Position numbers and translations under genes: made by a program. A DNA stretch of 64,000 bases, from NCBI RefSeq assembly GCF_028583425.1, contig NC_072791.1, positions 196,764,311 through 196,828,310 of the forward strand, in the 5' to 3' direction. The DNA comes from Eublepharis macularius. Taxonomy: Eukaryota; Chordata; Lepidosauria; Squamata; Eublepharidae. The notes beneath the pieces are model-generated. The model did not search any database. It was given only the letters and a program-made list of their open reading frames with translations, and had not been told where the DNA came from. This document shows, in pieces, positions 11,708 through 59,580 of this stretch (position 1 is its first letter; every line of letters begins with the position of its first letter).

Positions 11708-11924
11708 AAATAGTAAAAAGTCCAGTAGCACCTTTAAGATGAACCAACTTTATTGTAGCATAAGCTTTCAAGAGCCACAGCTCTCTTCGTCAGATGCATC
11801 TGACAAAGAGTGCTGTGGTTCTCAAAAGCTTATGCTACAATAAAGTTGCTTTGTCTTAAAGGTGCTACAGGACTCTACTGTTTTGCTACTACAGACTAAC
11901 ATAGCTAACTCCTTTAGATCTACG
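11708..11924 (+). mobile_element. Head-to-head retroelement, family B, copy 1
   Basis: Inverted copies meet at the self-complementary centre TCAGATGCATCTGA near 11800. The right copy runs through 'GGTGCTACAGGACTC' to 'ACAGACTAACATAGC' and is longer than the left. A perfect 12-bp duplication CTCCTGTTTTCA flanks it at 11696-11707 and 11925-11936. The family is abundant in reptile genomes, from recognition. Confidence 0.85.
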
Positions 11925-11970
11925 CTCCTGTTTTCATTTATTAAAGACCTGGGTGTCCTCAGAGCTTGGA

Positions 11971-12406
11971 ATAAAGATGGGCACGAACTGGAAAAAAACC
12001 TGAACCATGTGGTTTGTGGATCATCAAATTTCACGAACCATGAACCATGAACTTTCACGAACCTGCCCCCAGTTCGTGAACCAGTTCATTTGGTTCATGA
12101 ACATGTCACATCCAGGTCAGAAAACCGTCACTTCCAGGTCAGCAGAAGGTCACTTCCAGGCCAGCAGAAGGTCACTTCTGAGTCAGCAGAAGGTCTGCAG
12201 GAAGTCCCCCCCTGTTGCCTAGGAAACTGATTGATCAGCACCAGGCTGTCTGCAGTAACGAACCAAAAAATGAACCAAATGAACCAGCCTAAAGTTCATG
12301 GCGGTTCATCAGAAATGGGATCTGATGAACCGCTGGTTCGCAAACCACGAACTGGCCTGGTTCATCGTGAATTTTGTTTCGTATTTTGGTTCATGCCCAT
12401 CTCTAG
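11971..12406. mobile_element. MITE of the 'GATGGGCACGAAC' family, copy 1
   Basis: Starts AAAGATGGGCACGAAC and ends GTTCATGCCCATCTCTA. Subterminal GAACCA/TGGTTC motifs are repeated many times, and the middle holds three to four 'AGGTCACTTCC' direct repeats (12115-12195). Confidence 0.7.
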
Positions 12407-12660
12407 GTCTCCTGACCTGAGGGAGCCTTGAACTCATAGGAAAAACAGATTCAGGGGAAGGCTTCCCATCCTTTTTTCTCTCATTTTCTTTTTTGTATTA
12501 TAAGCTGCTTTGGATTTCTAGAGGGGGGAGGAAGGAAGTGGAATATAATTAAGTAAACTCTCTCTTGTTCAAGGGATGGAAATTGCCTAGAGAATAGCTA
12601 TGCACGTTTCAAGCTTACATGACTGCATGGAACTGATTTCCTTTAAAGTGTAGCCTTTCC

Positions 12661-12856
12661 TGACCTGAATAGCCCAGGTAAGCCTGATCTCATCAGATCT
12701 CAGAAGCTAAGCAGGGTTGGCCTTGATTAGTAATTGGATGGGAGACTTTCAACAAAGACCAAGGTTGCAGAGCCAGGCAATTGCAAACCACCTGTTAGTC
12801 TCCTGCCATGAAAACCCCATCATGGGTTGCATAAATTAGCTATGACTTGAGGATAC
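12661..12856 (+). mobile_element. 5S rRNA-derived SINE
   Basis: The head matches vertebrate 5S rRNA: CTGATCTCATCAGATCTC, AGAAGCTAAGCAGGGTTGG, TAATTGGATGGGAGAC. The tail GCAAACCACCTGTTAGTC and GAAAACCCCATCATGGG, then CTATGACTTGAGG, is the BovB-like tail of squamate SINEs. Confidence 0.88.
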
Positions 12857-13378
12857 TCTCTACCAAGTTGTAGCCTAAAACTGTTTATTTTTAAAGATTT
12901 TGCTACAAACTATAAATAGCCCTACAATACGTGTTAGGAAGTATGTCCTGTTGGAATCTTCCAAAGCATTTGGAAAATGACTATACATTGAATAAAACAA
13001 GTTTAGAAATGAACAGATTACAAATGAACTAAAGCAAATGTTTTATAGTTATATAACCTCAAGAAAACAGCTGAATCAAAATTACTCTCTTTTTCAAACG
13101 AAATTTTTTGGTAATGTCAAAAAATATCTTCCCTTGCTGGGGACTTTTGGCATTCCTTATTTAAATACTTGCTTATTCATTGACAATGTCCTCACTTGCC
13201 TTCAGTGACATCCTCATGTCGCAATATCTGAATGGTAGTAAAAGATTTGATGTTATCCTGTTCAGAGAGTGAAGATCCCTGATTGGCTAGGAAGAAGGAA
13301 GCAGCAGCCCACAAAAGGGACCAATGCAGGAATATAAGACACAAATAAAGTGATTATTTCCCCGACTTTTTCAGGTGT

Positions 13379-13523
13379 TGATTCCACACACATTGGATAA
13401 TGCACTTCCAATCCTCTTTAGAGATCATTTGGAACTGAATTTTTCTAGTGTGAAACAAAAAACCCACTTCCAAAGGATAGCTAAAGTGCACTGAAAGTGC
13501 ATTATCCAATGTGTGCGGAATCA
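13379..13523. mobile_element. 145-bp palindromic MITE, copy 1
   Basis: Starts TGATTCCACACACATTGG and ends CCAATGTGTGCGGAATCA, with inverted arms of about 60 bp. It is the same family as 49704-49853. Confidence 0.75.
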
Positions 13524-14018: not shown

Positions 14019-14258
14019 CAGAGCAGAACCACAAGTGACAAAAGGCACAGATTGGACACTTGTCTGCTTCCCTCAAGTTTTGATGGGAAATGTAGGCATC
14101 CTGGTCTCGCAGCTTCGCTCTCTGACTGCTGTCCAATGGACTTTTCAACTGTCACTTGTCCAACATTCCGCCAAGCTGCCTACATTTCCCATCAAAACTT
14201 GAGGGAAGCAGACAAGTGTCCAATCTGTGCCTTTTGTCACTTGTGGTTCTGCTCTCAG
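14019..14258. mobile_element. Palindromic MITE 'GAGCAGAACCACAAGTGAC', copy 1
   Basis: Arms of about 80 bp are almost perfectly mirrored: both carry ACAAGTGACAAAAGGCAC and CTCAAGTTTTGATGGGAAAT. The core between them is about 70 bp. Confidence 0.82.
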
Positions 14259-15889
14259 TTAAAACCAGATCCAGATTTTTGTGGGTAGGGCAGTGTTGGG
14301 CTCTGGTAATGAAAAATGGGGGGGGGGGTATGCCCAAATTTGAGATTCTGCATCCCCCTCCATTATGACACTCGGCGTTCTCATATTTTATGTATAGATA
14401 CAGCAGATATTCTAGTAAAAAACAACAACAACACCCAAACTATATGTGCAAGATTTTGTTTCTGTTACTATACATGACTAGTTTGGCTCCTTTAATATCA
14501 AAGCAAAACATAGCAATTTAAAAGCAGTAGAGTGGCTTTAAAGCTGTCTTCTGGCAAAGCATGCCCAACTGCCATACCCAGCGTGAGCTCTCTCTCAAGC
14601 TTCGCAGTAACACCATCGCACAGACACTTCAGTTTCTCCTCGAATCATTAATTTGTCCCGACTCCCACACAGTGTTTTTAAAGTGGGAATTCATGATTTA
14701 TAGTTGGTCTCTATTAATCTTTAAGATAACTTAAGAACTCTCCTATAAATCATGACTTGGCCCACTTCATTACCTCTATATTATTTTTAATATTGTAGAT
14801 GAAAAGGCAAGGCCACCGTTACCCAAAGCTGGATAATTCTCCAGCGTATCTTAATTTTGTGTAACTTTGAATATAGTATTTATTTCCCATGATATTAGAC
14901 ATAAAAAAACAAACCTGAGGATTCAGGATGAAAATAATTTTCTCCTCTAAACACAGCCAATAAACTTTTGGGACCACCAAACAGAATCTTCTGAAAGTGA
15001 ACATCAAAATTAAAGCCACTGTATCCATACGTCACAGACCTTATACAACCAACTCTGGTAAAATCCCTCATTTCTGGGAACATTTTGATGTAAGCCTGCC
15101 CAGAAGATGACTTTATCACACATTAGGTGCAGCTTCTGTGGTGGAAGATGTAATAAAATGGTTCCCCATATCCACCTCATTCAACACAATTATCATATAG
15201 TCAATGACTTGAATTCTGTTTCGGTGCTCAATGGATTTTCCAAATGTGACTGAAAGGAAACGAAAAACTGTTTGTTGCAAAAGTAAATAAGATAGACAAG
15301 AAAACAGGTGGATGGGAGGAGTAAGTACAAAATGTTCTAGCAAAACAGAATGGCTTCATAACTCCGTATCTTCACATTGACAGCCATAAAACCTTCTGAA
15401 CCTCTCTGAGAGAACAGAATGATGCAGATTTCAAAAGCGTGCTCATATACCAGATGACGGGGATGTACCGCATGTGGCTCATTCAAGGGGAAGATGTCAA
15501 GAATTCTCTCTTTGTAGTTAGAGCTTTGTCTTCTGGGTGCTAGCTTTTCTGAATGAAGCTCTTCAGCATCTCATTTGCACAATGATCCAGCACTGCCTTC
15601 CCCTCCCATAATTGTTTAACTTGGTTAGATTCAGCAAGTCTGATTGCCTTGGCTATATGAGTACAGCTTGACAAGTAGCAATCGAGCAATCATAAAAACA
15701 GTCATAAAACCACCATTTTAATGTACTCTGTAAGGCTGAGTTTATTCACAGTGGCCAAATGAATCACAATGCTCAGCTATTAAGATCTGGATAACGAATC
15801 AGTTGGGCCATCATGGAAACGAAAAGGAAGTAAAACCAACAGATTTCTCACATTTAGATAAAAACATTTCTTCCCCTGCTTAGGTGGGC
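14259..15889. other. Intergenic, unique, with an exon-like site
   Basis: A ten-G run lies near 14320. On the minus strand a good acceptor (CGTTTCCTTTCAG, ending near 15250) precedes about 45 open codons (to about 15118). There is no recognisable protein and no convincing donor. Confidence 0.4.
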
Positions 15890-17919: not shown

Positions 17920-17931
17920 CATTCTTCAACA

Positions 17932-18154
17932 GTAGAAAAGAACAAGATTCCAGTAGCACCTATAAGCCTAAGAAAATTTGTGGTAGGGTATGAGCTTTCA
18001 TGAACCACACCTCACTTCAGATACAGCTGAAGAAGGGAGTTCTGGCTCACAAAAGCTCCTACCCTACTACAAATTTTCTTAGTCTTACAGGTGCTACTGG
18101 ACTCTTGCTCTTTTCTATTGCTACAGATAGACTAACACGGCTACCCGTCTTGAT
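17932..18154 (+). mobile_element. Head-to-head retroelement, family B, copy 2
   Basis: The left reverse copy starts at GTAGAAAAGAACAAG. The right copy ends in 'GACTAACACGGCTACCC'. A 12-bp duplication CATTYTTCAACA (one mismatch) is at 17920-17931 and 18155-18166. The core reads CTGAAGAAGGGAG then, after the loop, CTCACAAAAGCTCC, a decayed version of the family's GAAA-containing core. Confidence 0.83.
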
Positions 18155-18382
18155 CATTTTTCAACATAATCAGAAAAACCTTTGAGAGCTCTCAAGCCTC
18201 TATCTCGATCAGTGACACATGACAGAATCTGAACTGCTGGCATTTAATTTTCGAAATGGACTTGACTTTCTATTTGTAATATGTTATCTCTCTGTCTTAC
18301 TGTAGCCTTTTATTGTCAACTATATAACTATAAAACTATATAAAAAGGGGTCCAGAAACACACTTTGCATGCATACTGGCAT

Positions 18383-19102: not shown

Positions 19103-19116
19103 AATATAAAAGTACT

Positions 19117-19493
19117 ATGGTTGTTTTGGGTTTTCCGGGCTGTATTGCCGTGGTCTTGGCATTGTAGTTCCTGATGTTTCGCCAGCAGCTGTGGCTGACA
19201 TCTTCAGAGGTGTAGCACCAAAAGACAAGGATCTCTCAGTGTCACAGTGTGGAAAAGATGTTGGCAGGTCATTTGTATCTACTCAGGAGGGGTGGGTAGA
19301 GTAGATACAAATGACCTGCCAACATCTTTTCCACACTGTGACACTGAGAGATCCTTGTCTTTTGGTGCTACACCTCTGAAGATGCCAGCCACAGCTGCTG
19401 GCGAAACGTCAGGAACTACAATGCCAAGACCACGGCAATACAGCCCGGAAAACCCACAACAACCATTGTTCTCCGGCCATGAAAGCCTTCGAC
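19117..19493 (+). mobile_element. Head-to-head Penelope-like element, family A, copy 1
   Basis: Two inverted copies of one short element: left arm 19117-19283 (reverse), 16-bp loop 19284-19299, right arm 19300-19493. The right arm is 27 bp longer at its 3' end. A perfect 14-bp target-site duplication, AATATAAAAGTACT, flanks it (19103-19116 and 19494-19507). Each arm carries CTGAAGA, a 6-bp stem GCCAGC/GCTGGC, and GAAACGTC, which resembles a hammerhead ribozyme core. Assignment to Penelope-like elements is inferred from this core and from the head-to-head structure. The arm-loop-arm arrangement and the duplication are seen directly. Confidence 0.85.
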
Positions 19494-20057
19494 AATATAA
19501 AAGTACTCCTTTGGAGAATCTGAAGTCAGGTTCATAGGAAGCAGCAGTTTGGTAGTCATTTGGCTTATCGGACTATGTGCATCCCCAGGGCGATGCATTC
19601 AAATCTCGAATTGCATCTCCAGAACACCAAGTGGGGTCAGCTGCTCCACCGGAGATAGACTCACTTCTGAGTCAAGATGCTCAGCATGAGATTGACTCCA
19701 CCAATTTGACGTTGACACAGGTAGTGTTCAAATACTGAAGCAATATTGGGAATAGTGCTTGGCTGTCAATAAAACAGTTGCTGCATATGCATGAATCTTT
19801 CCAACTAGGTTTCTTTTTTAAAAGATCCAGTAGCACAAACACAAATATGTCAGGTGGTTCATTAAAAAGCCAAATCAGTTTGATTTCTTATGCGTGCTTT
19901 TTACAGCAACGGAGCTTACTTGATTTTTTCCTTGATCATTCGTCTGTGTCACAAAGAAGCTTTTCGTCTCATTTTGAGCTAGGCAGCACTGTTTCTATTT
20001 TCATTCAAAAGAACATTCAAATAACTTTACTTTTTTACCTCTGCACCAGTCTCTACT

Positions 20058-20325: not shown

Positions 20326-20333
20326 TCTCTACT

Positions 20334-27290: not shown

Positions 27291-29349
27291 ACAAGACAGG
27301 TCATGGATGGTACTAGATTCTTTTTGAAAGCCTTTGCTGTAAGCAAAACTAAACTCATTTTTACAGCTTATACAGCACTCCCCAAATTTGCATCTACATA
27401 AAGATTTCTTTTTTTTTCCCTGAAAAGGAAACAGTTTGATTACTTTTCTACTTTTCATAGGCAGAGCTAGAAAAACGAAGGAACAGTTGCATTGGTAAAG
27501 CATTTTAATCACATCAACTACAGCCCGTTCAAGATAAATATTTGTTATGAGGCTCACCCTTTGCTGCAACAGATGTGCTATGTTCTCTCTTTTGGTATTT
27601 GAATTATTTTAATTACAACAGAAAACCTTGCAATAAAAATGCTGGGAAGAGCCGTATATCGGAGGCTTAAGATCCTTCATTGCTGTTTAGTGGCTCACCA
27701 CTAACTCAGGTAGAGATTGTAGGACTCTGTTTGGAAGATGTACTCCCAATTAATGTTTCATGATTATGGCAGCACATCGTCCCCTGAAGACCAGCAGAAG
27801 GGAAAGAACCACAAAGAAGTTACACGATCCTTGCAGTCTACTGCCTCTTGTTCACCCCTTACTGCCTCCTATGAGCTGCCAGCAAAATGCAGTTTTAACT
27901 TGGCATTTCACAGACTCTTGTATGAATCCCTGTGTTAGCGCTGGCACAAATCTTCCATGCAACAGCTTGTGCAATGCTTTGCACTAGCAGTAGGACCAAT
28001 CTGGATTCAGGTAACACTTCTTAGTCCCGTACTGCTAATTAAAAACTGAAAGCCCTTCTGGAAGGCCACCGTAGGGTCCCATGCTTTATGCAAGCACAAT
28101 TAGCACACTTTTTGCAAGGGTACTCTGTTAATGCCAAATTGTAAACACACATTCAAAGAGGAGATCACGGTGTCCTCTGATATAGAGTACCGAGCAGCAG
28201 ATGGGAGGAATCTGAGTTTGCATTTGCTAAAGTTTACTGTTGGCAAGATCTAGCTCTGACATTCCCCCCTTTTTTCCTTACCAGCAGAGGATATTCTCTG
28301 CACTCGTATTGGAGAGTATGCACTTGCTAAGGCAACCGATTCAATAGTAAGGCCTCATGCTTATTTTGAGTAGTCTGAGCACGCTCTATTGAAAATTATT
28401 TCCTCAGCACACCAATTACACTTATAGTTTATTGGCTGTGTCAGATTACTGAAATACTGCCTGGCCATGAGTGGTCACTGGTGTGTGTTGATGACTTTGC
28501 TTACTTGAGTCATTCTAGAGTCGTTTCCCATTGTGTTGACCAATTACCCATTTATCTTCCACAACTCACGCTTCCTTTCCACCCCCAAATAGATCACAAT
28601 AACTCAGCTCTACAGGGAAGCTTCATTAGAACACGGCTTGGGTCCATTTTAAATTCATGGATGTAGTGAGACTGTGTTGTCAGAGGGCAAATACAATAGT
28701 TTTCGACTCCAAGATTCCCAATTTTGCTTCTTATAAAATGTACCATTGGAAAAGAAGTGTTGCAGCAGGAATCCTCCTCACCTATACAACATTCAAAGGA
28801 AGAAGCCACAGCGAAGGAAAGGAGCACCAAGTGAATTCTCAGGTGTTGTTAACAGAAAAAAAAACCGATTACTACTTCTACGCCCCTCCAAAATGTAGTG
28901 GAGCATCCTGATCTTTACCTTTTTCACAGCCAAGTGTTCTGCTTCCTTGTATGCACTAAGTTCTTATATAACAAATCAAACATATAGATGCATCTAAACC
29001 TGTACCCCAGGAACAAGTGTCAGTGTCAATATGCTCAGCATATGCTAGTTAAAAGAAAGTGTAAACGTCTCACGAAGAAAACAATACCCTTGACTGAAGA
29101 ATGGTACACTCCATCTATCTGGGAAGGTAGTCCTCTTCCACTGAGTGCGCAGCTTTGGGAGGGATGCACATGGAGCAGTGAGGGAGGAAGGGGGCACCCG
29201 CCTAGCCAGCTAGATCAGCCGAATCAACCCTGGCGATCAATGGGGTGACAGATGTCACAGCCAGATCGCCCTCACAACCAAAAAAGGAATAAAGAAATCC
29301 CAGAGGTAACATCATGTTGTGTTATTGTTTCATAAGACTTTGATCAATA

Positions 29350-32565: not shown

Positions 32566-32727
32566 GTTTCGGCATTCAGAATGCCGAAAGAATGCCGAAA
32601 CAAAAGTGTTTCGGCTTCTTTCGGGGAATGCCGAAACGTTTCGGGGAATGCCGAAACGTTTCGGGTAGCCGAAAGAAAAAAGCCGAAACGTTTCGGGATT
32701 CTTTCGGCTTTCTTTCGGCTTTTCAAT
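32566..32727. repeat. Subterminal GCCGAAA/TTTCGGC motif cluster, left end
   Basis: Many direct and inverted GCCGAAACGTTTCGG-type motifs crowd the first 170 bp of the giant palindrome. A related but not mirrored cluster lies at 36126-36262. In the hAT superfamily, short subterminal repeats often bind transposase; that role is inferred here. Confidence 0.7.
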
Positions 32728-32996
32728 GGGAAAATGCCTCCGTCTTCCCGGACGTCTGGGGGAGGCATTTTCCCACCGAATAAGCCCAAAATTGGTGGGG
32801 ACCTTCCTCTAACCCTTCTCTAACAACCACCCAAGTTTCAGACAGATTGGACTTTGGGGGGCCATGTTATGGCCCCCCAAAGCAGGTCCCCCCATCCTCC
32901 CATAAGAAAGCGAAGGAGCAGCATATTGTTAGCATGCTGCTACTCATCTTCTTCATTATTTCCTATGGGGAAAAAATGAAGAAGCAGGCTTCCTTT

Positions 32997-33480
32997 GCCA
33001 GGGGTGGCATTTTGCATGCAAAATGCCCCCTTACCCTCAGGGGCCCTTCTCCCACCCCTCCTCCCACCCCCCACCAAGGCTCAGCCTGCTCCCACTTGGG
33101 GGGGCCATTTCATGGCCTCCCCAAGTAGGTGCTCTAATCTCTACCACTGACAGCTGGGGGAGGCTTGTGTTGCCAGGGGTGGCATTTTGCATGCAAAATG
33201 CCCCCCAACCCTCTGGGGCCCTTCTCCCACCCCTCCTCCCACCCCCCACCAAGGCTCAGCCTGCTCCCACTTGGGGGGGGCCATTTCATGGCCTCCCCAA
33301 GTAGGTGCTCTTTTCTCTACCACTGACAGCTGGGGAAGGCTTGTCTTGCCAGGGGTGGCATTTTGCATGCAAAATGCCCCCCAGCCCTCTGGGGCCCTTC
33401 TCCCACCCTTCCTCCCACCCCCCACCAAGGCTCAGACTGCTCCCACTTGGGGGGGGGCATTTCATGGCCTCCCCAAGTAG
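32997..33480. repeat. Three ~175-bp tandem units, left arm of giant palindrome
   Basis: Each unit includes the palindrome CATTTTGCATGCAAAATG, a CCACCC-rich stretch and CTCCCACTTGGGG. Units begin near 32997, 33172 and 33348. Three mirror-image units occupy about 35355-35850 on the other arm. Proline-rich and glycine-rich open frames across these units are a by-product of base composition. Confidence 0.85.
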
Positions 33481-33982
33481 GTCCTCTCAGCCCCTAAAGT
33501 CCACCCCTTACAGCCCCACACAAACCCAATTCCCCCCCAGCTGCCACACACAGACCCAAATCCCCACATTAGCCCCTCACAGACCCAAATCCACCCCCAC
33601 CTGCCCCACACCCATAACCCCAGGAACAGGCTGGCAAAGGCCAGCCCTCTCCCTTTGTTCCCTATGCTGGGAACTTCTAAACTCTCTTTCCCTGGGCAAT
33701 TCTGCACAGCCCAGGGGTGCCACAATGGTGGGCACACTTCTGAGTGCCAGCTGGTCCCTGTGAAAGAGCACCTGAACCACAGACACCCTCCCTCAAATTC
33801 CCCCACCACCTACAAAGATGGCTGGCCAGCCAGCCCCATTGTTCCCTATGATGGGAACCAACTGCACAACAAAGAATAAAACAAGAACAACACAAAATAA
33901 AGTTTTAATTTTCTTTCTCCCTTCCAAAGTACAAGTAGGCAAAGCATTATGACACATTACACCAGCAGTCCCCCACACAGAA

Positions 33983-39819: not shown

Positions 39820-42183
39820 CATGTAATTCTAGACTTATTTTGCAGGTATAAAGCATCATCACACTTGATTTCAAAACTTTTACAAAAATTAGAACAATGA
39901 ACACTATTAAAAGCAGCAGCAGAGAATCAATCATCAAACCGCTGCAGAAACTGAACTGAAGCAGACCCTAAAATACTTCTTAACAGCAAACTTGCATGTA
40001 AATACTGTCTGCTAATAAATGTAACTCAAACTAGACATCAATATTAGAAGAATCCAGAAGGGTCAGACTTCGGGTCCATCTTCCCCAGCATCTTGTTTGC
40101 AAGAGCAACCAGCCAACCAAAGTTCTCCAAGGACACCAGAATCAGGGCCTGAAGGGAACAAGCTTGCCCAAATGACAGAAATTTGGAAGCTCCATTTAGC
40201 CATTACCTAATAACAACATTTGGAGCAATTGTACATTGCACTGGACTTCTGTGACTAGAACTCTGGAATAATTATTTGCTCTTAAAAGGCTGCTGGTGGA
40301 GGAGGAAAAATGTGGGTCAGGACTGCAAGGCTAGGGAAGAAGGGAAGTTAACTCCTGACCCAGTGCTATTTTCCCAGTTGAAAGCACCCCCTACATGTCC
40401 GTCTTCTCTGTCAAAAGTATTTATGATCTATGACACTGTTTATCTATTGAAAATATCCGTATCCTGCCTTATTTCCATGGATCCAAGGCAGCTAACAGTG
40501 CAAGTACAAGTTGCAAAATACAAAATGTATAAGCCAACAAATAAAAATAATGCACAGATTTAAAACACTCATTGTTTATGAAGTGAGGCAGTTGCAATAT
40601 ACACAGTATTCCACATGCAGCCACACCACAGACTTATAATAAAGGCATTATGATATTGCTATTGTTGTTATTATTATTGCCAGCAAGGCTGTGGGAGCCT
40701 GGGGGTTTCAGCAGCTAAAGAATGTGGGAAGGAGCTGCATAAACTTTTTCACCAGCAGTGAAATTGTAACTCCCTTCCTCAAAGCTGATTTTTCTCTCAG
40801 GGAGAAAAGGTACAGGGATCCATACTTGTTCCCTGTAGGTGGGAAAGCAGTTGGTACAGGGAAAACTGTGAGCAGAAATGGCGACAAGGGGGGAAAGATA
40901 CTACTTTCCTTCCTGCTTTTCATTTAAAATTTCAGGAGATTGTTACATGTCTGCCTTCTAGCATCCAGTTTGTCTCTGAATATTCTTATTTCAGACAGTT
41001 GCTAAGAGGCATTTTGACAATCAATACCTTGGCAGCAAATACATATTGTATATGTAAGAACATAAAAGGGAGAACAAGGCAATGGAACAGATAGGAAACT
41101 CACCCAGGTTACTTTATCTAGCAGAGTAGCAGCTTTAATAAGGATACAAGAAAATGAACAGACTCAAGGACAGTCATGATGTACTGAGATAGGGAAAGCA
41201 ACTCAAAAAGAGCCTTTTCATAAAGCAGAGTTTACTCAAGACTTGTACCTTTGGCAACTGTTACGCCTTTCCTTAGTCACAGCTCCCGTATCTCACGAAT
41301 CACAGTGTATTTAGAAACAGGATGGAAAGTTGCATAAAAGACATCTGGGTTCAACCTTCGACTAGAGAGTTGAGAGATCAGAAGTGTGGAAGACCGGGGA
41401 ATAAATAAGCAAAAAACGATGAAAATAAAAAAGGCAAGCCTTCAGAAGCTGTAGGATATTCTCTTGTGCTTAAACTACAAATGCCACTGCAAATTAGGGA
41501 GCGGCTGTATGCAGACACTTTGATCTCCTTTTTTAATATAAAGCAAAACAAGCGACGGGTACATGTTTTGGGGGGGGGGGGAAGCAAAGCAAGTCACAAA
41601 ATAAGCCATTCGTGGGCTTCTTCAAAAGGAAAAACAGCTTCTTTTTTAAAAAATGTCCTTAAGCAAGTTCATTCTTAGGTGCTTGACTGATGTGACCAAA
41701 TAACTGCAGGTGGTCTTTCTGCCGCACTGAGAAATGATGTTCTAGCGTGCTGTTTCAGATAACCTCTCATGCTTTTCCTGGTAAAGCACATTGCAGAAAG
41801 CCTCGTACAGAATTCCTCTTGACTCAGGAGTACCAGAAACTTGTTCAGTAAAACATTTCAGTGCCTCTTGCTTACCAAGGCACAAACTGTTAACACTCAG
41901 AATATGTGAAAGTTCTAGGATTGGAATTTAAAGCCAGCTGCACAGCTCCCCTGGCGAGAAGCAATCCTGGGGCACTCTCTTTCAAATATATTCATGCGGA
42001 TGATTTTCTACTGAACACTTCGTATTAGTCTGTATAGTTACTTTGTTAATCTCCCATTGCCTACATTTATAGGTGGGCATAATTTTACAGGAGTAGGTTT
42101 GGTAGACTGTGCAAGGGCAGGCTAAATGCGTGGCTGCTTTAGGACAGCAAATGTAAATTTAGCATCTTGCCTAGACAATGAAG

Positions 42184-42374
42184 ATGGACCAGGCTAGCCT
42201 GATCTCATCAGGTCTTGGAAGCTAAGCAGGGTTGGCCCTGGTCAGTATTTGGATAGGATACCACCAAGCAAGTCGAGGGTTGCTGTGCACATGCAGGCAA
42301 TGGCAAACCTGTTAGTCTCTTGGCTTGAAAACCCCAGCGGGGGTTGCTGTGACTTGATAGCACTTTCCACCACC
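42184..42374 (+). mobile_element. 5S rRNA-derived SINE
   Basis: GCCTGATCTCATCAGG, GGAAGCTAAGCAGGGTTGG and GTATTTGGATAGGATACC are 5S-like. GGCAATGGCAAACCTGTTAG, GAAAACCCCAGCGGGGG and CTGTGACTTGATAGCAC form the tail. It lies 126 bp before the half-L1 duplication. Confidence 0.88.
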
Positions 42375-44078: not shown

Positions 44079-45010
44079 AGGAGGATCAGGCGGCAATGGA
44101 TGCATTTCCCTAACCGAACTGGATGTATGTTACTCTTGTATCTCTGTGTTCCCACATACTGCATCCAAACCTTGCCTCAAACCTCAAAGCTGCCTCTCAT
44201 GGATGGTGTGCAAAGATATAGCACCTCCCCACGAGCAAGGACACTTCCTACGTTGTTTTTTGGAACGACAATGCAGCAATGTGATGCATGACCAACTTAA
44301 GCAGCGACTCGAGGATGTCCATCCTTAACATTGTTATATGGTTTTTTTAAAAAAAATACTGGTGGTTTGCAGTGATGGTTTTTATGATTTTGCTGTACTT
44401 TGTTTTTACTGATTATCCAACAAAGCCTTGAGCTCCGGGGAGCCAGCACATACATTTTCTAAATAAAAAAAAATGAGCAAGCAAGCCATGGCCCCTTCTG
44501 AGGTCACTGAGCCTGTGGACAATGTTCTCATGTGATCTTCTTCTAGGAACAAGGCAAAGAAGAACATGGTTCCTACAAAAATGAACTTCAATGGCATGGA
44601 TTCAAGGATAACCAAGCATGGCACACCCTTCGTTAGAGAACAGCAAGATGCAAATTTTCCCCTTCAACAAAACTCAATACTGGAAACGACAGAATTCCAC
44701 TTCGAATTCCTTCCATGGGCCTAAATAGACTCATGTCACTTTCATTTTTAAGATGGAGAAGTACACAAAGCGACCCAACTATCCCCAAGTTTGTGGAAGT
44801 GAACAGATGCTTTGTCTTGTCCATTCCTCCCCCACACCGGCTGTGGCGTTGCATTCAATGATCCTTGATTGTAATTCCCACCAGCAAAGGATCTAGAAAT
44901 GCACTGCTTCTTCCAACCAGTCTAAGCTTACAGAACAAGAGACCGGAAACTCTGCTGCTACTGATCTCTCTCAGCTTTGTGTTCTTCCTTCCACTGAAGG
45001 ATGGGCCCTT

Positions 45011-45105
45011 ATCTATGAATACGAGCGATATCTATGAATACGAGCGATATCTATGAATACGAGCGATATCTATGAATACGAGCGATATCTATGAATATGA
45101 GAGAT
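45011..45105. repeat. 19-bp tandem repeat, five copies
   Basis: Unit ATCTATGAATACGAGCGAT at 45011, 45030, 45049, 45068 and 45087. The first four copies are identical and the fifth has two changes (TATGAGAGAT). Confidence 0.97.
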
Positions 45106-45281
45106 AGGACAGCCTTATGTACCAAAAGATGCAGGAGATGGTTTGGAAAGTTAGAGGAGATTTCAGACCGGGAAATTTAAAGTTTAAAGTTCCAACTCGC
45201 TGTAAAAAAGGACTTTCCAAATTTTCCATCTCCCAAGATTATCCAACAAAGCAGAGAAGGAGGGAGCCTGTAAAATTCTAG

Positions 45282-45388
45282 ATCCAGAGGAGTCTAGAAT
45301 TTCTGACGAAGAGAACTGTGATTCTCGAAAGCTTATGCTACAGTAAAGTTGGTTAGTCTTAAAGGTGCTACTGGACTCTTTTTGATTT
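45282..45388 (+). mobile_element. Family B retroelement, single-copy (monomer) insertion
   Basis: Only the forward copy is present, 45303-45388, preceded by about 21 bp of unexplained filler. A perfect 13-bp duplication TGTAAAATTCTAG flanks the insertion at 45269-45281 and 45389-45401. It has the best-preserved core in the window: CTGACGA (45303-45309), stem GAGAA/TTCTC, GAAA (45327-45330), then GC-TTAT-GC and TA. Confidence 0.83.
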
Positions 45389-48230
45389 TGTAAAATTCTA
45401 GGGATTCTTCCCAGGTAGGTCAGAACAATAACAACCTGGACATTTCTTTTGTACTTCGAGGTGAGATCAGGGAGGACTCTCCTTTCTACTAAATGTAGTA
45501 CACATTTTGGCACGTTTCCTTGAGCTACTTGAATTATTTTACTGGAAATCATTCCTTCGCTGTGGAATCTGTTGTGGTAGAGTGCACTATGCATATTACA
45601 GAGAACACATTGACATATTGTATGCACATCTGCTTGTCAGAAAAAGCCAACACACATTCACTTTAAAAAAGGGGGACCAATACATAGATAAATGCGAGAT
45701 TGGAAATGTGTGATTGGCTGGAGATGCACTGAATGCAGCATAAGACCTGTTTATTCCTGTTCTCTTAATTTTATTTGTAAAGAAAACACAGTGAGGGAGG
45801 GAGACATCCCTAACAAAGGAAGGGCAGCTGCTTATGATGATGATGTTATAATTATTTGTAGTGGCACCCACTTTCATTCTGCTTTACAGAGAACCTTAAG
45901 AAAAAAAAATAAGTCCTTGCCTTGATAAGGTTACATTCTAAAATTTAAACATGGTGAGAAAGAGATGCAGACCAACAGGCAAGAAGTAATGAATGCAAGC
46001 AAACACTACTTACAAATGCTTTCCATGCTTGTCATTTTATTTTCTGGGGACGGAGTGGCAAGCAACATAATGCAATCAGGGGTCTCTGTACCTCTTTTTC
46101 TCCCCCTTTAAAAAAAAACCCTACCCAGTTTTCATCTTGAATTAATGTCTAATTAGAGCTCAGACAAACTAGATTTCTGTTAGAAGATGAGGTACATTAC
46201 TGATGGGCATCACACAGGCAAACGCAAGAACATATTATCTTTAAATAACTCTCAATTGCATCCGCAACTGTTAGTTCCTTTCCACACAACGGTGTTTGCT
46301 AAGGAACACTAGGAACTTGACTCACAACAACACAAGTGGTTGATTTAAACCTCAAGCAGAGTGCCTGGGGAAAAATACCATCCCCACCATCACATCCCCT
46401 CTACCTGCCCGCTTCTGTGGCTCACAAGATTTATTCTGAAAAACGTTTCAGCGATATCAAATCTCTCAAGGCTCTCACGGAACTCAGAGTTTTGTTTTCA
46501 CTCACGTTAGAAACAGGCTGAATTTCTGCACACTTCAGCTGAAAAGCGGGATGTAATTTATCAGCTGCTTTCAATGGGGTGGGGAGGGAGCGAGCTAATG
46601 GAATCAGTTCCTCTCTGCAAACAAGGTTAACTGAACTAATCTCTAAAGCCTTCCCTGTGTGAAACACCTTTGGCAAAGGGAGGGGGGAAAGGAGAAGTAT
46701 CAATAAATCAAGATATGCACACAGTAAGTATGTGGCCTGATTTTACTCAGCGTATTCCACCCACCTGCTCCCCAAATCTTACATGACATTTAGTTTTCTG
46801 GTCACCGGGCCAGACTGAAGTTCTGAAGAAATGTGTTTTAACAAGTTTCCTTTTATTTGTTTAAAAACTTGGCATACATTTTCATTTTTAGCCAGCAATA
46901 GATTAACAACTCCCAAATTGTTAAAGGCAGTTGGGTTGCAAGTGTACTGCAACCCTAATTACAGTACACGAAGATGTTACGTCATGTCTGGATTCACCTC
47001 AAGGACTTTGAATCTGAGGTGTGCTGTGAGTTCCCCACTTGGAACCCAATTTGGATCAGGGCCACACAGCATGCAAGAAGAAGGGCCTGTGTCTTCCCTC
47101 TACACCATTTTCCTCAGTCGAAACGGCTGGGGGAGTGCCCAGTTGGGAATATCTGTGTGTACTCCTTGAGTATACATGGAGCCCCCCCCCAGCCATTTCA
47201 AGTAGAGGAAATGGTTTGCACCTCCCCTCCCGTGTGCCCCACCATCCTGATCTGAATTCTGCCCCCCAGCACCTGGAAACTGAGGCCCAAACAGCGACCG
47301 TCTGGTCACAAGCACCCAAAGGGAACCATAATATATAGTTAAGCACTGAGATGCCCCTTCTCTCATCCCATAGATAAGAGGGAGTGCCTGTCCTTATGCA
47401 CAGACTTTACCACAGAGTTAAGGTGTGGGCACAAATTCTATCAAGAAGTTTAAAAAAATTGGTATCGTCCAATTTATCCAGATTTAAAAGGACTGGGAAT
47501 GGGTCGACATGCTCTCTCCCTCCTCCTCTGCCCTGAGTTAAAATGAAGCTCTCCGCATCTCTTCTTCACACTGGGCTACTAAAGCAAAGGCTGGCATTCT
47601 AGAACCAACTTAGAACATGCTGGGATCCTCCACCTTTGAGTGAATTCATCTGATGGGCTCTGCCTTCACATGGGAAGGAGCTACCCACTCCTTATTTCCA
47701 GACCGTCCTCCAGACATCACTGGAAAAGCACCTGGGAATGTGAAAAGTTCTGACGAACCTCAAAGAAGCGACTTTATTTTAGGCTTGCGGAAGTCACAGA
47801 AACTGGTGGGACCAAAAGAAGTTAACGCTGCACCTTTTTCACAAGGATCATTGAGAAAAAAAGTTTTCATTTCGATAATTTGCTGGAGGGATGGGTGAGA
47901 AAGGAGAACTGAGGTAATCCTGAGTAGAAAGTTTTAAAGGTTTTTTTGCCGCTTGAGACTGGGGAGGAGAAGTTCAATGAATCAGTACATCAGTTCATCT
48001 CTTTCTGAGCTGCCTTCATCTGTTTGTACAGACCGGGCAATGACAATTATGCTGCTTTTGCATGTCTGCCCCCCCTTTTCTTTTCCCACATGACACAACA
48101 GGGAGGGCAGGAAGCAATGCTTCTTGCCCCTACAGTGAATTTTTCTTCAGACAACACCACATAACCAAATCTCACCGGCTATGTGGCACACCAACATGAA
48201 GTCTTGCTTTGGCATTTCATGAGGTAAGAA

Positions 48231-48927: not shown

Positions 48928-49110
48928 TCAGTCATGATAAAACTGGAAAAAACAAGAGAAACAAAAACAGGGCAATTCTTTAAAGAGAATACATCTAACC
49001 TATAAACTCCCATCATCAAATGGGCTACAACCAAAATACTCTTGGCTCAGAGTTACACGGAAAACCGTAATTTTCATCACAGGAGAACTTGAAAAATTAA
49101 TCTTGCTATT

Positions 49111-49363
49111 GATGGTTGTTGGGGGTTTTCCGGGCTGTATTGCCGTGGTCTTGGCATTGTAGTTCCTGACGTTTCGCCAGCAGCTGTGGCTGGCATCTTC
49201 AGAGGTGTAGCACCAAAAGACAGAGATCTCTCCGAGATCTCTGAAGATGCCAGCCACAGCTGCTGGCGAAACGTCAGGAACTACAATGCCAAGACCACGG
49301 CAATACAGCCCGGAAAACCCCCAACAACCATCGTTCTCCGGCCGTGAAAGCCTTCGACAATAC
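49111..49363 (+). mobile_element. Head-to-head Penelope-like element, family A, copy 2
   Basis: Left arm 49111-49204 in reverse orientation, 34-bp asymmetric centre, right arm 49239-49363. It is the same family as 19117-19493, with a different break point: the left copy extends further into the element than the right one. A 12-bp duplication AATCTTGYTATT (one mismatch) flanks it at 49099-49110 and 49364-49375. It lies about 210 bp upstream of an STK39 splice acceptor. Confidence 0.85.
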
Positions 49364-49703
49364 AATCTTGTTATTCTTCATGAATCCTAACAGCTCATTT
49401 ATTTAGGCACTGGAGTTGTTCCTCAGCTTAAGTATCCTTATTGCAATGCATGTAGCAATAAAAGAAGCCCCCCCCCTAAAATAAAGAGGGAAGGCTTGCC
49501 ACAAATCTTCTCTCTTTCCTCATTTTTTTACAGAGTCTTAAATTCAAAAGAAACATTTAGGCCCATGTTCATGAATACTTTGGGAAACATGCAGACTTGA
49601 AAATCATCCTGCAAATAATATAACATCACGTTTGCAATGGAAGAGGCAGTTCCTAGTTGAGAAAGATCCTCTCCCGGGACAGAAAAAATGCGAGCTACAG
49701 ATT

Positions 49704-51715: not shown

Positions 51716-51944
51716 GCCATGATTACCATGCTCTTAATACCATAAGGTTCCTTTCGTGATGTGAAGTTGGGAACACTAGAATTCATCATTAGTTATGGCT
51801 TACAACTCATGAGGGAAGTTTCCCACCATGAATTCTTGTTCTTCAGAGAGGTATTTCTCTGCCTCCTAGGGAGAGTTAATCCTTCCTGTCAGATGACTGG
51901 GAATGCTGATAATTGACTCCTTCTTAGGAGAGACACCCGTTCTC

Positions 51945-52152
51945 TCAGAGCCAAGCTACAAGTGATGCCTTACACAGGTTGGACACTTGTCAGCTTCCCT
52001 CAAGTTTTGATGGGAAATGTAGGCGTCCTGGTTTTACAGCCTGGCTCTCCATTACAGCTGCAAGACCAGGATGCCTACATTTCCCATCAAAACTTGAGGG
52101 AAGCTGACAAATATCCAACCTGTGTAAGGCGTCACTTGTAGCTTGGCTCTCA
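51945..52152. mobile_element. Palindromic MITE 'GAGCCAAGCTACAAGTGA', copy 2
   Basis: Arms of about 90 bp mirrored around 52047, with CTCAAGTTTTGATGGGAAAT in each arm. Same family as 14019-14258. Confidence 0.82.
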
Positions 52153-52897
52153 GTCAAACTGGACAAAGTGAGAATATTGCATGCCTGAAGAGAGGAGAGA
52201 AACAATGGTGGGATTTTTAGCCTAACATCTTCCCTGAATCTGCTGGGAGTCCAGCACAGGTAAAGGGCCAGGAGCTGCTGGGACATCTTGCTGTCCACTT
52301 CTTACATCAGCCAGAGAAAGACAAATCTCTTTCCTGATGGGTCATTTTGCCTTTAGGGGAAGCCACCGGTGCTTAGTTCAGTGCCCAAGATGCAGCTCGT
52401 AGCAGCAACTTTGGTTCATGCGGATGAGAAGCCAGCCCTGTTTGAAGTACCCTGTAGGGTTTAGAAGAGCTGAAATGGCACAGCCACAACCAAGTTTCTA
52501 CACTTTATGTTCTGCCTGCATTTACGGTTTCTACACAGTGATCACTTACCGGTATGCCACAATAATTCACAGGTTCTACAACACTTAGGTCAAGTTTCAG
52601 CAGAATTGCCTTAGACCCCATATTTCATTAACTGAAGACTAAATGAAACTGACAAAGTGCCCTTTATCTGTATACAGTATCTCCCCCACCTCTTCCACAG
52701 ACAGAACACTTCATAACTGTGCCACTAAAAATTTACACACTTGGTGCTATTTTTGTTTTGGTTAAGTAGTGTAATATAAAACACTTGGTCGGTACAAGCG
52801 ATTTCATAGTGCTAATTTATATTAAAATATAAACAGAAATCAATTTCTGAAATACCATTTGGAGCCATAAAAGCATAATTTCAATTAACAGTCTTAC

Positions 52898-52950: not shown

Positions 52951-53692
52951 CTGGAGGGAGGGAAAAAAGGGAGCCATGGTAAACATCAAAATGTAATGAA
53001 GTGCAGCTTGTGCACCCTAAACGCATTCAAACTTCATAAATAAGTCACTGTTAATATGTAGGACGTATTTTACAGCTTTATGCTCTTGTCTTTATACCAA
53101 ATGCATTACAAGAGAGTTTAACTATATAAATGCCCCAGAGAGTTTAACTATATTGCCTTTTCAGACAAGTCGGCAATGGCACACTTTCACAGTTATGAAG
53201 GAGGGCGATATCTAAAAATAAAATAAGATGCATACAATTCCAGTCTGAAACATCAAAGACCAGTCTCCTTTCTGAAGGCAAGAGAGGTTTCAGGCCTTTC
53301 CCAGCTTACCTAATCCGACAGGGCTGTTTTATATTTCTTACTACCAAACAGTGAGGTGTGGGAGAGAGGGAAAGAGGTGTAAGATTCCAAGCCTGGCCCA
53401 TGCCATTCTCTCAGAACAGCCATAAGATGACGTCATCATGCTGATTTCACTCCCCCTCCTGCATAAACCTAGGTAAGTGCGAATGCACTCTCCATTTCAA
53501 GAAACGGAGTGTGGTTCAAATTCAAAACAGGACAAGCCTGCTTTGTCATAGAATCACATGAATGTATCCGTAGCAGGGCACAGGGGCCAAAGCATACTCT
53601 TAAAGCGGCTTCTCCAACACCAATATTCAGAAGGCCTCTAAACTTGGAAGCTCTATTTTGTCACTATGGCTATTAGTTACTTAGGACCCTAT

Positions 53693-53902
53693 CAAAAAGA
53701 GTCCAGTAGCACCTTTAAGACTAACCAACTTTACTGTAGCATAAGCTTCCGAGAATCACAGTTCTCTTCGTCAGATGCATCTGACAAAGAGAACTGTGAT
53801 TCTCGAAAGCTTATGCTACAATAAAGTTGGTTACTCTTAAAGGTGCTACTGGACTCTTTTTGATTTTGCTACTACAGACTAACACGGCTAACTCCTCTGC
53901 AT
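53693..53902 (+). mobile_element. Head-to-head retroelement, family B, copy 3
   Basis: The two copies meet at GTCAGATGCATCTGAC near 53776. The left copy starts with CAAAAAGAGTCCAGTAGC and the right copy ends in 'CACGGCTAACTCCTCTGCA'. A perfect 12-bp duplication TTAGGACCCTAT is at 53681-53692 and 53903-53914. CTGACGA is intact in the left copy and mutated to CTGACAA in the right. Confidence 0.87.
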
Positions 53903-54056
53903 TTAGGACCCTATGAGATTGTCCAACCTATTTTTAAAGCCAACTATACTGGCACCCATTATTACACCTTTTGAAAGTGAATTCTGCATTAAATTAAGTG
54001 CCCTGCCCCACGGCCCCCTCTGAGCTTTGACTGAACATGTGTGGAGGGACAGCAGT

Positions 54057-55225: not shown

Positions 55226-55470
55226 TAGATAGGGTTGCCCTGAGGGAGGGAGGGCGGGGACAGAGGTAAAAAAACAAAACACGGAAGTAGCATAGGATAG
55301 CTCTAGGAATTGCTGGAAATGATAGTTTTGCCATAGCGCTGCCAGCAATTTCCAGAGCTGCCCTATGTCACTTCCATTTTTTTTTTGCCAGAAGTGGCAC
55401 GATATTGCACACAATACAGAGTTTTTAAATATATGAGAGGTGGCAGGTAACAGGAGTGGGGTCATGGGAC
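55226..55470. mobile_element. GTTGCCAG-group MITE, decayed
   Basis: Starts TAGGGTTGCCCTGAGG. The interior is a foldback: GATAGCTCTAGGAATTGC is mirrored by GCAATTTCCAGAGCTGCC. The right end is not clear. Confidence 0.5.
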
Positions 55471-56388: not shown

Positions 56389-56754
56389 AGATAGGCACGA
56401 ACTGGGAAAATACCAAACCATGCGGTTTGTGGTTTGTCACATTTCACAAACCACAAACCGTGAACTTTCAGTTCGCGAACCAGTTCGTTTGGTTCATGAA
56501 AACATCACTTCCAGGACAGCAGAAGGTCACTTCTGGGGCTGCAGAAAGCCCATCCCCCTGTTGCCTAGGAAACTGATTGATCAGCGCCAGGCTGTCTGCA
56601 GTGATGAACCAAAAAATGAACCAAATGAACTGGTCTAAAGTTAATGGTGGTTCGTCAGAAATGGACTCTGATGAACCGCCAGTTTGTGAACCACGAATTG
56701 GCCTGGTTCGTGATGAACTTTGGTTCATATTTCAGTTTGTGCCCATCTCTATTA
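56389..56754. mobile_element. MITE of the 'GATGGGCACGAAC' family, copy 2
   Basis: Starts TAGAGATAGGCACGAAC and ends GTGCCCATCTCTA. It shares with 11971-12406 the central block CCTGTTGCCTAGGAAACTG and the repeated GAACCA motifs. Confidence 0.72.
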
Positions 56755-57183
56755 CTAATTCTATACTCTTCTTCAAGGTCAACTACCAACACCAGATCTA
56801 CCCAAGAACCTGAACAGAGACAGACAGCATAAGGCAGGCAGAGGCCCTATTAACATGCATAGTCCAGCCAGACTGGCCATTTTTACTCTTCAGGTGCTGT
56901 GCAACATCAACTGCCCTGAGAGACAGTAATTGACACCATATACAGATCTGCTTATAGTTCATCTGAGAACTGTCCTTCTGAACAGGTAAGGGGGATGGGG
57001 GAGAAGAGGCTAGTCAGTCTCCATGGGTAAAAGAGTTTTGGGGTCTCCTTCATCTTCTCTGAGGAACTTCTGTGCAGCCTGTTTCAAGATATATACACTG
57101 AACAGCCAATTAGCCAGCCTGAATCTTCATGATCAGGTTGGATAAAAATAAATTGAGGATCTTAAGCACTCTCCTACTGTCCA

Positions 57184-57487
57184 TAAACAAGGTTCAAGCC
57201 CAGTAGCACCCTAAAGCCCAACCAGATTTTCCAGGGTATAAGCTCTTGAGAGTCAAAGCTTCCTTCTTCAGAAACAAGTAGGAATGGAGATCTGAGTTTG
57301 TTTTATCCCAGAGAAAATGGAATTGACTGGGATAAAAAGACTCCGATCGTTCCTACTCATATCTGATGAAGGGAGTTTGATTCTCGGAAAGCTTATACCT
57401 GGAAAAATTTTGTGAGCGTTAAGATGTTACTGGACTTAAATCTTGCTTATCTATTGCAGACCCACATGGCTACCCAACCTGAAACTA
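57184..57487 (+). mobile_element. Head-to-head retroelement, family B, copy 4 (old, long centre)
   Basis: The left reverse copy contains 'CCCAGTAGCACCC' and the right copy ends in 'CACATGGCTACCC'. The centre (about 57280-57345) is longer than in the other copies. A 12-bp duplication TCYTACTGTCCA (one mismatch) is at 57172-57183 and 57488-57499. The core CTGATGAAGGGAG is readable at about 57363, and the copies are more diverged than the others. Confidence 0.78.
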
Positions 57488-58979
57488 TCTTACTGTCCAA
57501 ACTATCTACCTGTAAACCAAGTCAAGTTTAAGATACCACGTGAGCTTTCCCACAGAGGAAGAAGCTGTTATTATTGACTTTGAGTGTGTTTTTTGAATTC
57601 TGTCAGTTTACCTTTACTTCATTATTCTTCAGTTTTCTACCCAGTTTGGTGTAGGATTTATCCCTTTGAACCTTTTAAAATTCCCACTGGGAACCCTAGT
57701 GCAGTGGGGTAAGTGGAAAATTTTGATGGGAGAAATCCTGTAAGGTTTTATCTAGTTGCAGGAAATCCACCATCACTTTTTGATTTGATTTTAGTTAGGT
57801 AGTGCTACATTCCTGGGAAGACGACATTATTTACTCATCCTATATTTTTAGAATCTGATTGATTTGAACTCAGGAAGGACAATGCGACTTTAGCCTTCAT
57901 TTTGCCATGATAAAACGGGTCCCCGAATCCTGAGATTGTTAATGGCCATGTTCTGGAACACTGTATTATTTCAATCATTTCCTGTGATGTAGTAAATATT
58001 CCCTTTTGTAGGGTACACAGAAGAAGACCGCTGCATCAACATAACTGCTGTTCTCCTATAAATCTCACTATCACTGTTTAACTGCATAACATACTCGGAT
58101 ATAGGCCTCTAGGATAAGAGTATTTTATATTCTGAGACTTCTGCAACATTCTGCACATTATGGGAGAGTTGTTATATTCATATAGTGAATTGGTAAAGCT
58201 TCTCTTTCTCCTTTAAACTGGGAATTGTGCTTGAAGAAAAATTGCTAAGATAGCCTCGAGGTCAAGACAGTACTTAAAACAACATCCTTGGGAAAATTAC
58301 AAAGCAACTGCAAACAATTTTCACAATAATTGCTTTTTTAACTGCACTTTTCTGAAAATTCTTCAGTCATTTCTAATTGAAAACAGATCCACATTTTGAG
58401 ACGTGGCAGGAATGAGAAATGTATAGATAAGGGTAGTTTTTTTAAAATGCAAATAGTGTTTTTCATTTAGAAACTTTTTAGTCTCTTTCACTAAAACAGG
58501 CAACCTCAGATATAACCAATATATCTATTTCTGAATTACACTATAGAGGATAATAGAGCCACAAAATTGAACTAGGATGGACCACGGGGATTTCTGTATA
58601 AACCTGAAGGAAGTCCCACAGTTGCAGAAGAATTGAAAATCTAAAGCAAAATACATCGGGGGATTTAACTCCTCCAAATAACAGAAACAATGCCTGTGGC
58701 TTTAAGAACAGAATGCTCATTGAACTCTCAGGGGCTGTGGGGAGTTGCTGGACAACCCCAACAATATCGCCAAGCCTTGTTTTCTGTAAAGCAAAGCTGG
58801 GGAGGCACGGACTGGGAGGCCAAAACTGTCTTGAAAAAGGTCACACCTACCCTCTAGTGCATGTTTCCTGATGGACATGGACTCATTACCCCTCTGTTTC
58901 TGGGCACAATTCAAAGTGCTTGTTCTGACCTAAGGCCCAAAATGGATTGCAGCCAGGGTATAAGAAGGACTGTCTCCTC

Positions 58980-59580
58980 CTATTCTATCCACCCTGCAAA
59001 TTAAGATCAGTTTCTCAAGCCCTGCCTCCAGAGGTGAGATGGGTAGTAACAATTAGAGACAGGCCATTTTCTGTGGGGCACCACGTCCCCTTGAGGCTCT
59101 CCAAGCGTATCATTACTTTCTTTAGGTGTCAGGCCAAAATGCATCTTTTTACCCAGGATCTGAATTAGGAGTTTTATCTTACCAGCTTTTTAATAGTCCA
59201 CCCTCCATTTTATTAATAATATTTATGATGGTTGTTGGGGGTTTTCCGGGCTGTATTGCCGTGGTCTTGGCATTGTAGTTCCTGACGTTTCGCCAGCAGC
59301 TGTGGCTGGCATCTTCAGATGAAGATGCCAGCCACAGCTGCTGGCGAAACGTCAGGAACTACAATGCCAAGACCACGGCAATACAGCCCGGAAAACCCCC
59401 AACAACCATCGTTCTCCAGCCGTGAAAGCCTTCGACAATACAATATTTATGATGTTCAATGGTTTGTTTTTAATGGCTTGTTTTTAATATTATGTCATTA
59501 ATTGTAAGCCACCTTGAGCATGACTCTGAAGAGGTGCCATAGAAATGTCCTAAACAGACAAACAAATACATAAATGGAGG
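58980..59580 (+). mobile_element. CR1/L2-like LINE 3' end, split by a younger insertion
   Basis: The translation includes LPPEVRWV, RDRPFSVGHHVPLRLSKR and MHLFTQDL, matching the C-terminal 'RPFSV(A)APRLWN...KTHLF' region of squamate LINEs. The 3' tail TAAGCCACCTTGAGCATGAC and CATAGAAATG follows. The head-to-head element 59231-59441 interrupts it. It is probably the same family as 25300-26160. Confidence 0.75.
59231..59441 (+). mobile_element. Head-to-head Penelope-like element, family A, copy 3 (nested in a LINE)
   Basis: Left arm 59231-59317, 2-bp centre, right arm 59320-59441, the latter about 34 bp longer at its outer end. A perfect 13-bp duplication AATATTTATGATG flanks it at 59218-59230 and 59442-59454. 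The element sits inside an older LINE 3' end (58980-59580), whose sequence resumes after the duplication. Confidence 0.88.

Follow-up and report, generated by a model that had tools for sequence, protein, structure and literature searches.

How a single integration event can leave two opposed copies of the same retroelement is the question raised by a 64,000-nt window of the Eublepharis macularius genome (contig NC_072791.1, positions 196,764,311 to 196,828,310 of the forward strand), in which two families identified by their coding as Penelope-like elements (PLEs), here called A and B, occur as short head-to-head inverted pairs. The window denotes this whole stretch, which lies on contig C2 of the assembly searched (2.24 Gb, 72 contigs); L-numbers denote fetched genomic loci, L001 being the insertion at 19117. 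Almost without exception, one arm of each pair carries a 3' extension, the tail, and the other does not, and the two outer ends fall at positions matching the two start sites of reverse transcription described in vitro for an Anolis PLE. We consider it likely that insertion in both families proceeds through bilateral target-primed reverse transcription in which the start sites act as partners, one per DNA end.

The window contains eight such insertions, all located where the original prediction had placed them: 19117, 49111 and 59231 of family A (A1-A3), and 11708, 17932, 45282, 53693 and 57184 of family B (B1-B5). Seven had been described as inverted pairs, which they are; the remaining one, 45282, had been taken for a non-pair and is also a pair, since 12 nt of the tail terminus lie in reverse at 45282-45293. 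All eight are head-to-head, each within one short direct target duplication, and the enclosure of each whole pair by one direct duplication bears out the proposal of one integration event per pair. Duplications of 12-14 bp had been proposed for all eight, and under one criterion a duplicated word of 12-17 nt, which may extend into the element ends, was found at every one. Alignment places the A arms at 19111-19296/19299-19500 (A1), 49111-49232/49239-49365 (A2) and 59227-59319/59320-59443 (A3), their gap-free inverted matches being 97-100% complementary; the arms of B1, B2, B4 and B5 are likewise head-to-head, the B5 pair having been recognised by eye. In an even-step sample of twenty 10-kb stretches from contigs C1-C3 there were five B copies and zero A copies, so that the window looks locally enriched. 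The parts of the eight insertions are as follows.

19104-19116 (left) and 19495-19507 (right): A1 target duplication (ATATAAAAGTACT)
19117-19296, minus strand: A1 no-tail arm, its outer end at the inner start site
19299-19494, plus strand: A1 tail arm, with a hammerhead-ribozyme-like (HHR-like) core at 19376 and the 33-nt tail at its end
49099-49110 (left) and 49364-49375 (right): A2 target duplication, one mismatch
49111-49232, minus strand: A2 no-tail arm
49239-49363, plus strand: A2 tail arm, preceded by 6 nt of filler
59218-59230 (left) and 59442-59454 (right): A3 target duplication, its end common with the arm
59227-59319, minus strand: A3 no-tail arm, 100% complementary to the A3 tail arm
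59320-59441, plus strand: A3 tail arm
11696-11707 (left) and 11925-11936 (right): B1 target duplication (CTCCTGTTTTCA)
11708-11924: B1 pair, reverse no-tail arm to ~11796 and forward tail arm from ~11797, axis within TCAGATGCATCTGA
17920-17931 (left) and 18155-18166 (right): B2 target duplication, one mismatch
17932-18154: B2 pair, diverged, reverse no-tail arm to 18017 and forward tail arm from 18024
45269-45281 (left) and 45389-45401 (right): B3 target duplication
45282-45293, minus strand: B3 tail mini-arm, 12 nt, the reverse of the tail terminus, read directly from the sequence
45294-45301: 8 nt between the B3 arms, repeating part of the target duplication in inverted form
45302-45388, plus strand: B3 no-tail arm, starting at the HHR-like core
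53681-53692 (left) and 53903-53914 (right): B4 target duplication
53693-53902: B4 pair, reverse no-tail arm to 53777 and forward tail arm from 53778, with the same axis as B1
57172-57183 (left) and 57488-57499 (right): B5 target duplication, one mismatch
57184-57487: B5 pair, diverged, reverse no-tail arm, long middle and forward tail arm with an HHR-like core at 57363; arms found by eye, outside the BLAST list

Exactly one arm has a tail in 46 of the 47 family A pairs in which both outer ends were read, and in 9/9 family B pairs (the five in the window, L024, and copies inside L005, L045 and L046). The A pairs comprise a mapped set (28/28; 3 window pairs plus 25 from genome queries), the fully visible pairs from one further query (3/3), those from a first (4/4) and a second tail-free query (2/2; C9:29272311 and C2:77318704), eight from a third tail-free query, and an incidental second pair in L004. 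Six of the eight from the third query were among 20 fetched copies (L092, L098-L101 and L108, the last with a mate arm lacking the tail and a 14-bp duplication), and the other two, L113 and C2:162700654, were chosen because both of their arms were listed. Two loci whose mate end was unread, L045 (for its A copy) and L095, were left out of the count. The single exception, L090, has a tail on both arms. The host sequence on one side of it is repeated in inverted form on the other over at least 37 bp, as far as the fetched DNA reaches, so this locus is an inverted duplication and not the product of a two-sided insertion. Together with L114 and L125, L090 shows a tailed PLE arm duplicated in inverted orientation along with at least 37 bp of flank, a natural control for arm copying.

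Mapping the outer ends onto L041, a long family A relative whose open reading frame (ORF) starts at 4084, reveals two narrow end positions. The tail end lies at 4196-4202 in 28/28 mapped pairs and the no-tail end at 4165-4174 in 26/28, the exceptions being L048 and L040; the no-tail arm of L040 is split, its outer piece ending at 4167. These ends are ~118 and ~85 nt into the ORF, and the family A tail between them is 33 nt long, the equivalent family B extension being ~31-34 nt. In the Anolis carolinensis PLE PAc, reverse transcription has two adjacent start sites, the commonest start lying 111-118 nt into the ORF; the interval between the sites equals the "tail" of genomic copies, and both target strands are cut and extended (PMC11167929). 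By position, the two outer ends in the gecko match these in vitro start sites. The original account had the left arm's 3' end cut at a nearly constant inner point, which does not hold: there is no truncation, and the end corresponds to the second start site. Among arms obtained with tail-free queries, 18/35 in a first set carried the tail (23/40 when five previously read arms, all with a tail, are added), as did 12/20 in a second set; ten single arms from the 20-copy query of the second set divided into six with and four without. With about half of unselected arms tailed, either site can prime, yet a two-sided event takes one of each.

The same ends bear on L1-style twin priming, in which the second DNA end would prime internally on the same RNA and leave an inverted upstream piece beside a forward 3' piece. 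Priming of both DNA ends on element RNA, with part of the product inverted, agrees with that scheme; the arms, however, overlap in the 3' region in 28/28 mapped pairs where adjacent, non-overlapping parts are predicted, and the arm that ends shorter has its outer end confined to a narrow start site (4165-4174, 26/28), not at a random internal position, which leaves twin priming very improbable as the general route. A long interspersed element with twin priming was rejected as a candidate because of the same 28/28 overlap. The suggested inversion at integration stands, and its attribution to twin priming on one RNA does not: the two arms copy one and the same 3' region, and their outer ends lie at start sites.

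A second proposal, self-priming, has been made for PLEs from palindromes at the inverted junction, with an antisense template, in one study (PMC3846280). Here one cDNA would fold back and copy itself to form the inverted arm, and several axes do show short self-complementary matches (ATGCAT in B1/B4; GAGT in L003/L004/L006), and the arms of many pairs share minor variants, for instance in L005, L007 and L029, each with a 4-bp deletion in both arms. An arm copied in this way should nevertheless run through the tail into the flank instead of ending at the inner start site, arm lengths differ widely (1,320 versus 186 nt in L041), and some pairs carry different subfamily alleles on their arms. The expected product resembles L090, with both arms tailed and at least 37 bp of flank inverted, which occurs once in the sample, and we regard snap-back as an improbable origin of the pairs.

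Pairing was closely linked to target duplication. With duplications defined as words of at least 9 nt, allowing at most one mismatch in words of at least 11 nt (chance rate 1.2% between unrelated flanks), a duplication was present in 39/42 A pairs and 9/9 B pairs (48/51 in total), versus 2/13 A and 1/6 B copies whose mate arm is absent or broken (3/19; Fisher p = 3e-10). Read outside this test were L110 (15 bp), L108 (14 bp), and the second pair and a further single tail arm in L004, both with no visible duplication; for C1:110339123 one flank only was fetched. Duplications varied in length, mostly 12-14 bp, with no fixed 8-bp length of the kind left by DNA transposons, and were 69% A+T (29 trimmed by hand); a target motif was sought at both cuts, and only A+T richness was clear. 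Pairing is not universal among PLE copies: the 20 A copies from the single-arm tail-free query comprised 6 pairs, 10 single arms, 2 broken mates, 1 inverted duplication and 1 unsettled case (L095), and the five B copies in the 200-kb even-step sample comprised one pair, three single copies and one complex copy. A complex event of family B was seen at L010:7250-7620, where a forward tail piece is followed by a target-like repeat and then by a forward no-tail arm.

The identity of the elements rests largely on long relatives. L041 contains an open frame with a reverse transcriptase (RT) motif, FVDD, and a GIY-YIG motif, GVYRIPCSCGQVYIG, both recognised by eye; its ORF stops near 4003 and is followed by an HHR-like core and then by the ORF start again (ATG 4084), which continues for 118 nt up to the tail end, so that the pseudo-long-terminal-repeat (pLTR) feature, an ORF start repeated downstream of the stop, is present. 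A homolog search with family A gave 973 matches; among the 120 listed nearly all had PF26215, many PF00078 and four PF01541, the best-scoring among the matches listed being Anolis sagrei proteins (73-74% identity), and an E. macularius homolog is 98% identical over 123 residues. A Pfam search with the family A fragment of L041 returned no family above cut-off, a weak T5orf172 match (E 0.047) lying below it. The GIY-YIG fragment of family B, from the longer copy nested in L046, matched PF01541 with E = 2e-4 (22.0 bits versus a cut-off of 22.6) and has turtle homologs at 64-84% identity; the RT evidence covers family A, and family B is known here from this fragment. The HHR-like core, CTGANGA...GAAA, occurs 16 times in the window, 8 of them within the insertions (shuffled mean 5.9, maximum 14, n=100), and in family A it lies at the same place with respect to the start codon as described for PAc; the Rfam hammerhead models matched neither family. 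The optional 30-40 bp tail, the AT-rich target and the short duplication typical of PLEs are all found in these families. The predicted Penelope-like identity is upheld by RT and/or GIY-YIG coding in the two long copies read (L041 for A, L046 for B), where a DNA transposon would have had a DDE transposase. A DNA transposon or foldback element was rejected as a candidate on the varied duplication length, the asymmetric ends and the RT/GIY-YIG coding. Among the homologs, PLE-like proteins are filed under Escherichia coli (P0011, 59% identity, 2.6-kb contig) and Listeria monocytogenes (P0121, 71%, 345-bp contig), likely animal contamination of bacterial assemblies.

If the outer ends are fixed, the inner ends are not. 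The 28 mapped A pairs show 25 distinct combinations of inner ends, arm lengths range from 90 to 1,320 nt with no correlation between tail and no-tail arms (rho 0.25, p 0.20), and neither arm type is systematically longer (p 0.25). The arms overlap at the axis by at least 3 nt in 7/28 pairs (null 4.5%, p = 2e-4) or, counting distinct junctions, in 5/25 (p = 0.005), and filler visibly copied from the element is found in L005, L044 and L047. Axes had been predicted to differ from copy to copy, as they do in the mapped A pairs and in the sampled pairs at large, where no single axis is common to most copies; the arm gap at 19117 is 14 nt, not 16, and in family B the claim fails for B1 and B4, which share one axis at ATGCAT that is also present in the longer L046 copy. 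A few further axes are shared (L003/L004/L006 at GAGT, with different flanks, and L001/L040 at another), as expected if some spots favour joining. These shared axes are what a palindromic master would leave; 25 distinct axes among 28 pairs, and different flanks where an axis is shared, make it hardly credible, in agreement with the original exclusion of such a master. The same very low probability applies to an element nested within an element and to a DNA transposon with inverted ends, given the one direct duplication around each whole pair and the RT and GIY-YIG coding of long copies.

The two arms of some pairs carry different alleles: a 4-bp indel in L006, position 4158 in L003, and position 4057 in L034, L037, L038, L041, L046 and L047, each discordant allele occurring on both arms of other insertions; the arms of L008 also differ, perhaps through an effect of the alignment. 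Such discordant alleles point to two template RNAs at least sometimes, and gene conversion or recurrent mutation could account for single discordant sites. They also bear on a scheme in which both primings use one RNA, the inner site leading and the tail site trailing, unable to overtake. In 19/28 pairs the no-tail arm equals or exceeds the tail arm in length, as that scheme expects, and a longer tail arm is found in 6/9 discordant pairs versus 3/19 others (Fisher p = 0.013, two sites dropped), or in 7/13 versus 2/15 with all sites (p = 0.04). The association is post hoc and small and depends on the choice of diagnostic sites, which makes it a lead only, hinting that a single RNA is used twice in some events, and the discordant arms and long tail arms would require a second RNA even so; we consider one-RNA double priming unlikely.

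Several features favour bilateral priming over these alternatives: the second outer end is fixed and lies at a known start site, the arms are unequal in length and sometimes carry discordant variants, and pairing is linked to duplication. In the reaction that we propose, the GIY-YIG endonuclease would cut both strands ~12-14 nt apart in AT-rich DNA, and both 3' ends would then act as primers on element RNA, with reverse transcription starting at the outer tail site from one of them and at the inner site, ~33 nt upstream, from the other. Two cDNAs of like strand would extend towards each other and end independently. Short self-complementary matches or templated filler would then link them head-to-head, and the staggered cut would be turned into the target duplication; where one end only is primed, the other would be closed by repair, giving a single arm, usually with no duplication. 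Going further, the start sites are probably obligate partners in one concerted reaction at both ends of the staggered cut, always tail plus inner site and sometimes on two RNAs, so that the complex would be functionally asymmetric, the duplicated pair its normal complete product and single arms the result of failed second priming. We infer, on this scheme, an asymmetric dimer, an order of the two primings, and a joining step with the enzyme that performs it.

Several observations weigh against bilateral priming with partnered sites. The one-tail count is open to query bias, in that 28/46 A pairs came from tail-bearing queries (25 from a one-tail pair query and 3 from another), a selection that favours tail/no-tail pairs; the other 18 (14 from tail-free queries, 3 in the window and 1 incidental) are free of this bias, as are all B pairs. 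The mini-arm pairs at 45282 and L099 were recognised by eye. Early no-tail ends occur at 4141 in L048 and, by eye, at ~4150 in L109, and 14/28 junctions have filler instead of overlap. Three pairs have no duplication by the criterion (L033, L092 and L101), none is visible at the second L004 pair, and three one-armed copies do have one (L093, L105 and L003B1). Finally, the arms of a pair diverge by 3.5%, versus 5.4% when reshuffled (27 pairs, 0/2000 reshuffles), a difference that disappears in the six youngest pairs (1.8% versus 1.9%, 467/2000); arms closer than reshuffled ones indicate that both usually come from the same source, and two RNAs are indicated for a minority only.

Other repeats in the window were noted in passing. 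A further head-to-head inverted repeat lies at 51944-52153 (97-nt arms, 93%, 16 nt between) and is related to 14171-14263. A nested palindrome of 3.4 kb at 32720-36129, with arms of up to 471 nt at 99% around tandem units of ~133 and ~176 nt, has no relation to the PLE pairs as far as seen. Rfam matches on palindromes (MIR821, mir-559 and others) score far under gathering and were rejected as miRNAs. The minus strand at 29080-29279 holds a 7SK RNA-like copy (181 bits, 138 later model positions unmatched), probably a retrocopy. Two 5S rRNA-like stretches, 12665-12771 (41.6 bits) and 42174-42288 (27.5 bits, under the gathering score), are 78% alike and perhaps represent a 5S-derived short interspersed element, and a tandem array with a 19-bp unit occupies 45010-45106.

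Comparison with known systems places these insertions between several partial precedents. In L1 twin priming both target ends prime on element RNA, as in the gecko PLEs; it differs in using non-overlapping parts of one RNA, and in starting at the poly(A), and it is not known to have a second start site that is fixed. Among the retrotransposition routes of eukaryotes, integration by PLEs is one of the least understood. The architecture itself is not new: inverted pairs, optional tails and target duplications have been published for PLEs (PMC3846280, PMC8969392, PMC11167929). What the gecko genome contributes is the rule that the two start sites pair strictly, with one tail per pair, and that such pairing goes with duplications. 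Neither point was found in the literature searched, which describes tails just as "optionally present" and lacks most subscription papers on Penelope. For the Penelope families of Adineta vaga (PMC3846280), which differ in having few copies and for which self-priming was proposed, the available part of the study neither counts the tails in each pair nor relates pairing to duplication, and the one-tail rule makes that proposal testable.

The closest parallel is PAc (Poseidon-type), which shares with family A an ORF encoding RT and GIY-YIG, an AT-rich target, two adjacent start sites, an ORF start at stem II of the HHR-like core, a presumed cut 26 nt past the start codon, and an outer end 118 nt into the ORF (PMC11167929). 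Both strands are cut and extended by PAc in vitro, and the genomic geometry suggests the same here. PAc differs in that no start-site difference between top and bottom strands was reported, whereas the gecko sites are strictly partnered, and in that the main text draws no connection from the pair of sites to the opposite ends of a single insertion, or to inverted pairs (PMC11167929). The one-tail rule predicts that target duplications mark two-sided events, and the genome offers a readable fossil record of dual priming in which to follow it, with 3371 first-look candidates for one family A query. The rule connects start sites known from published in vitro work with inverted structures already described in genomes, and implies that each complete insertion uses both sites.

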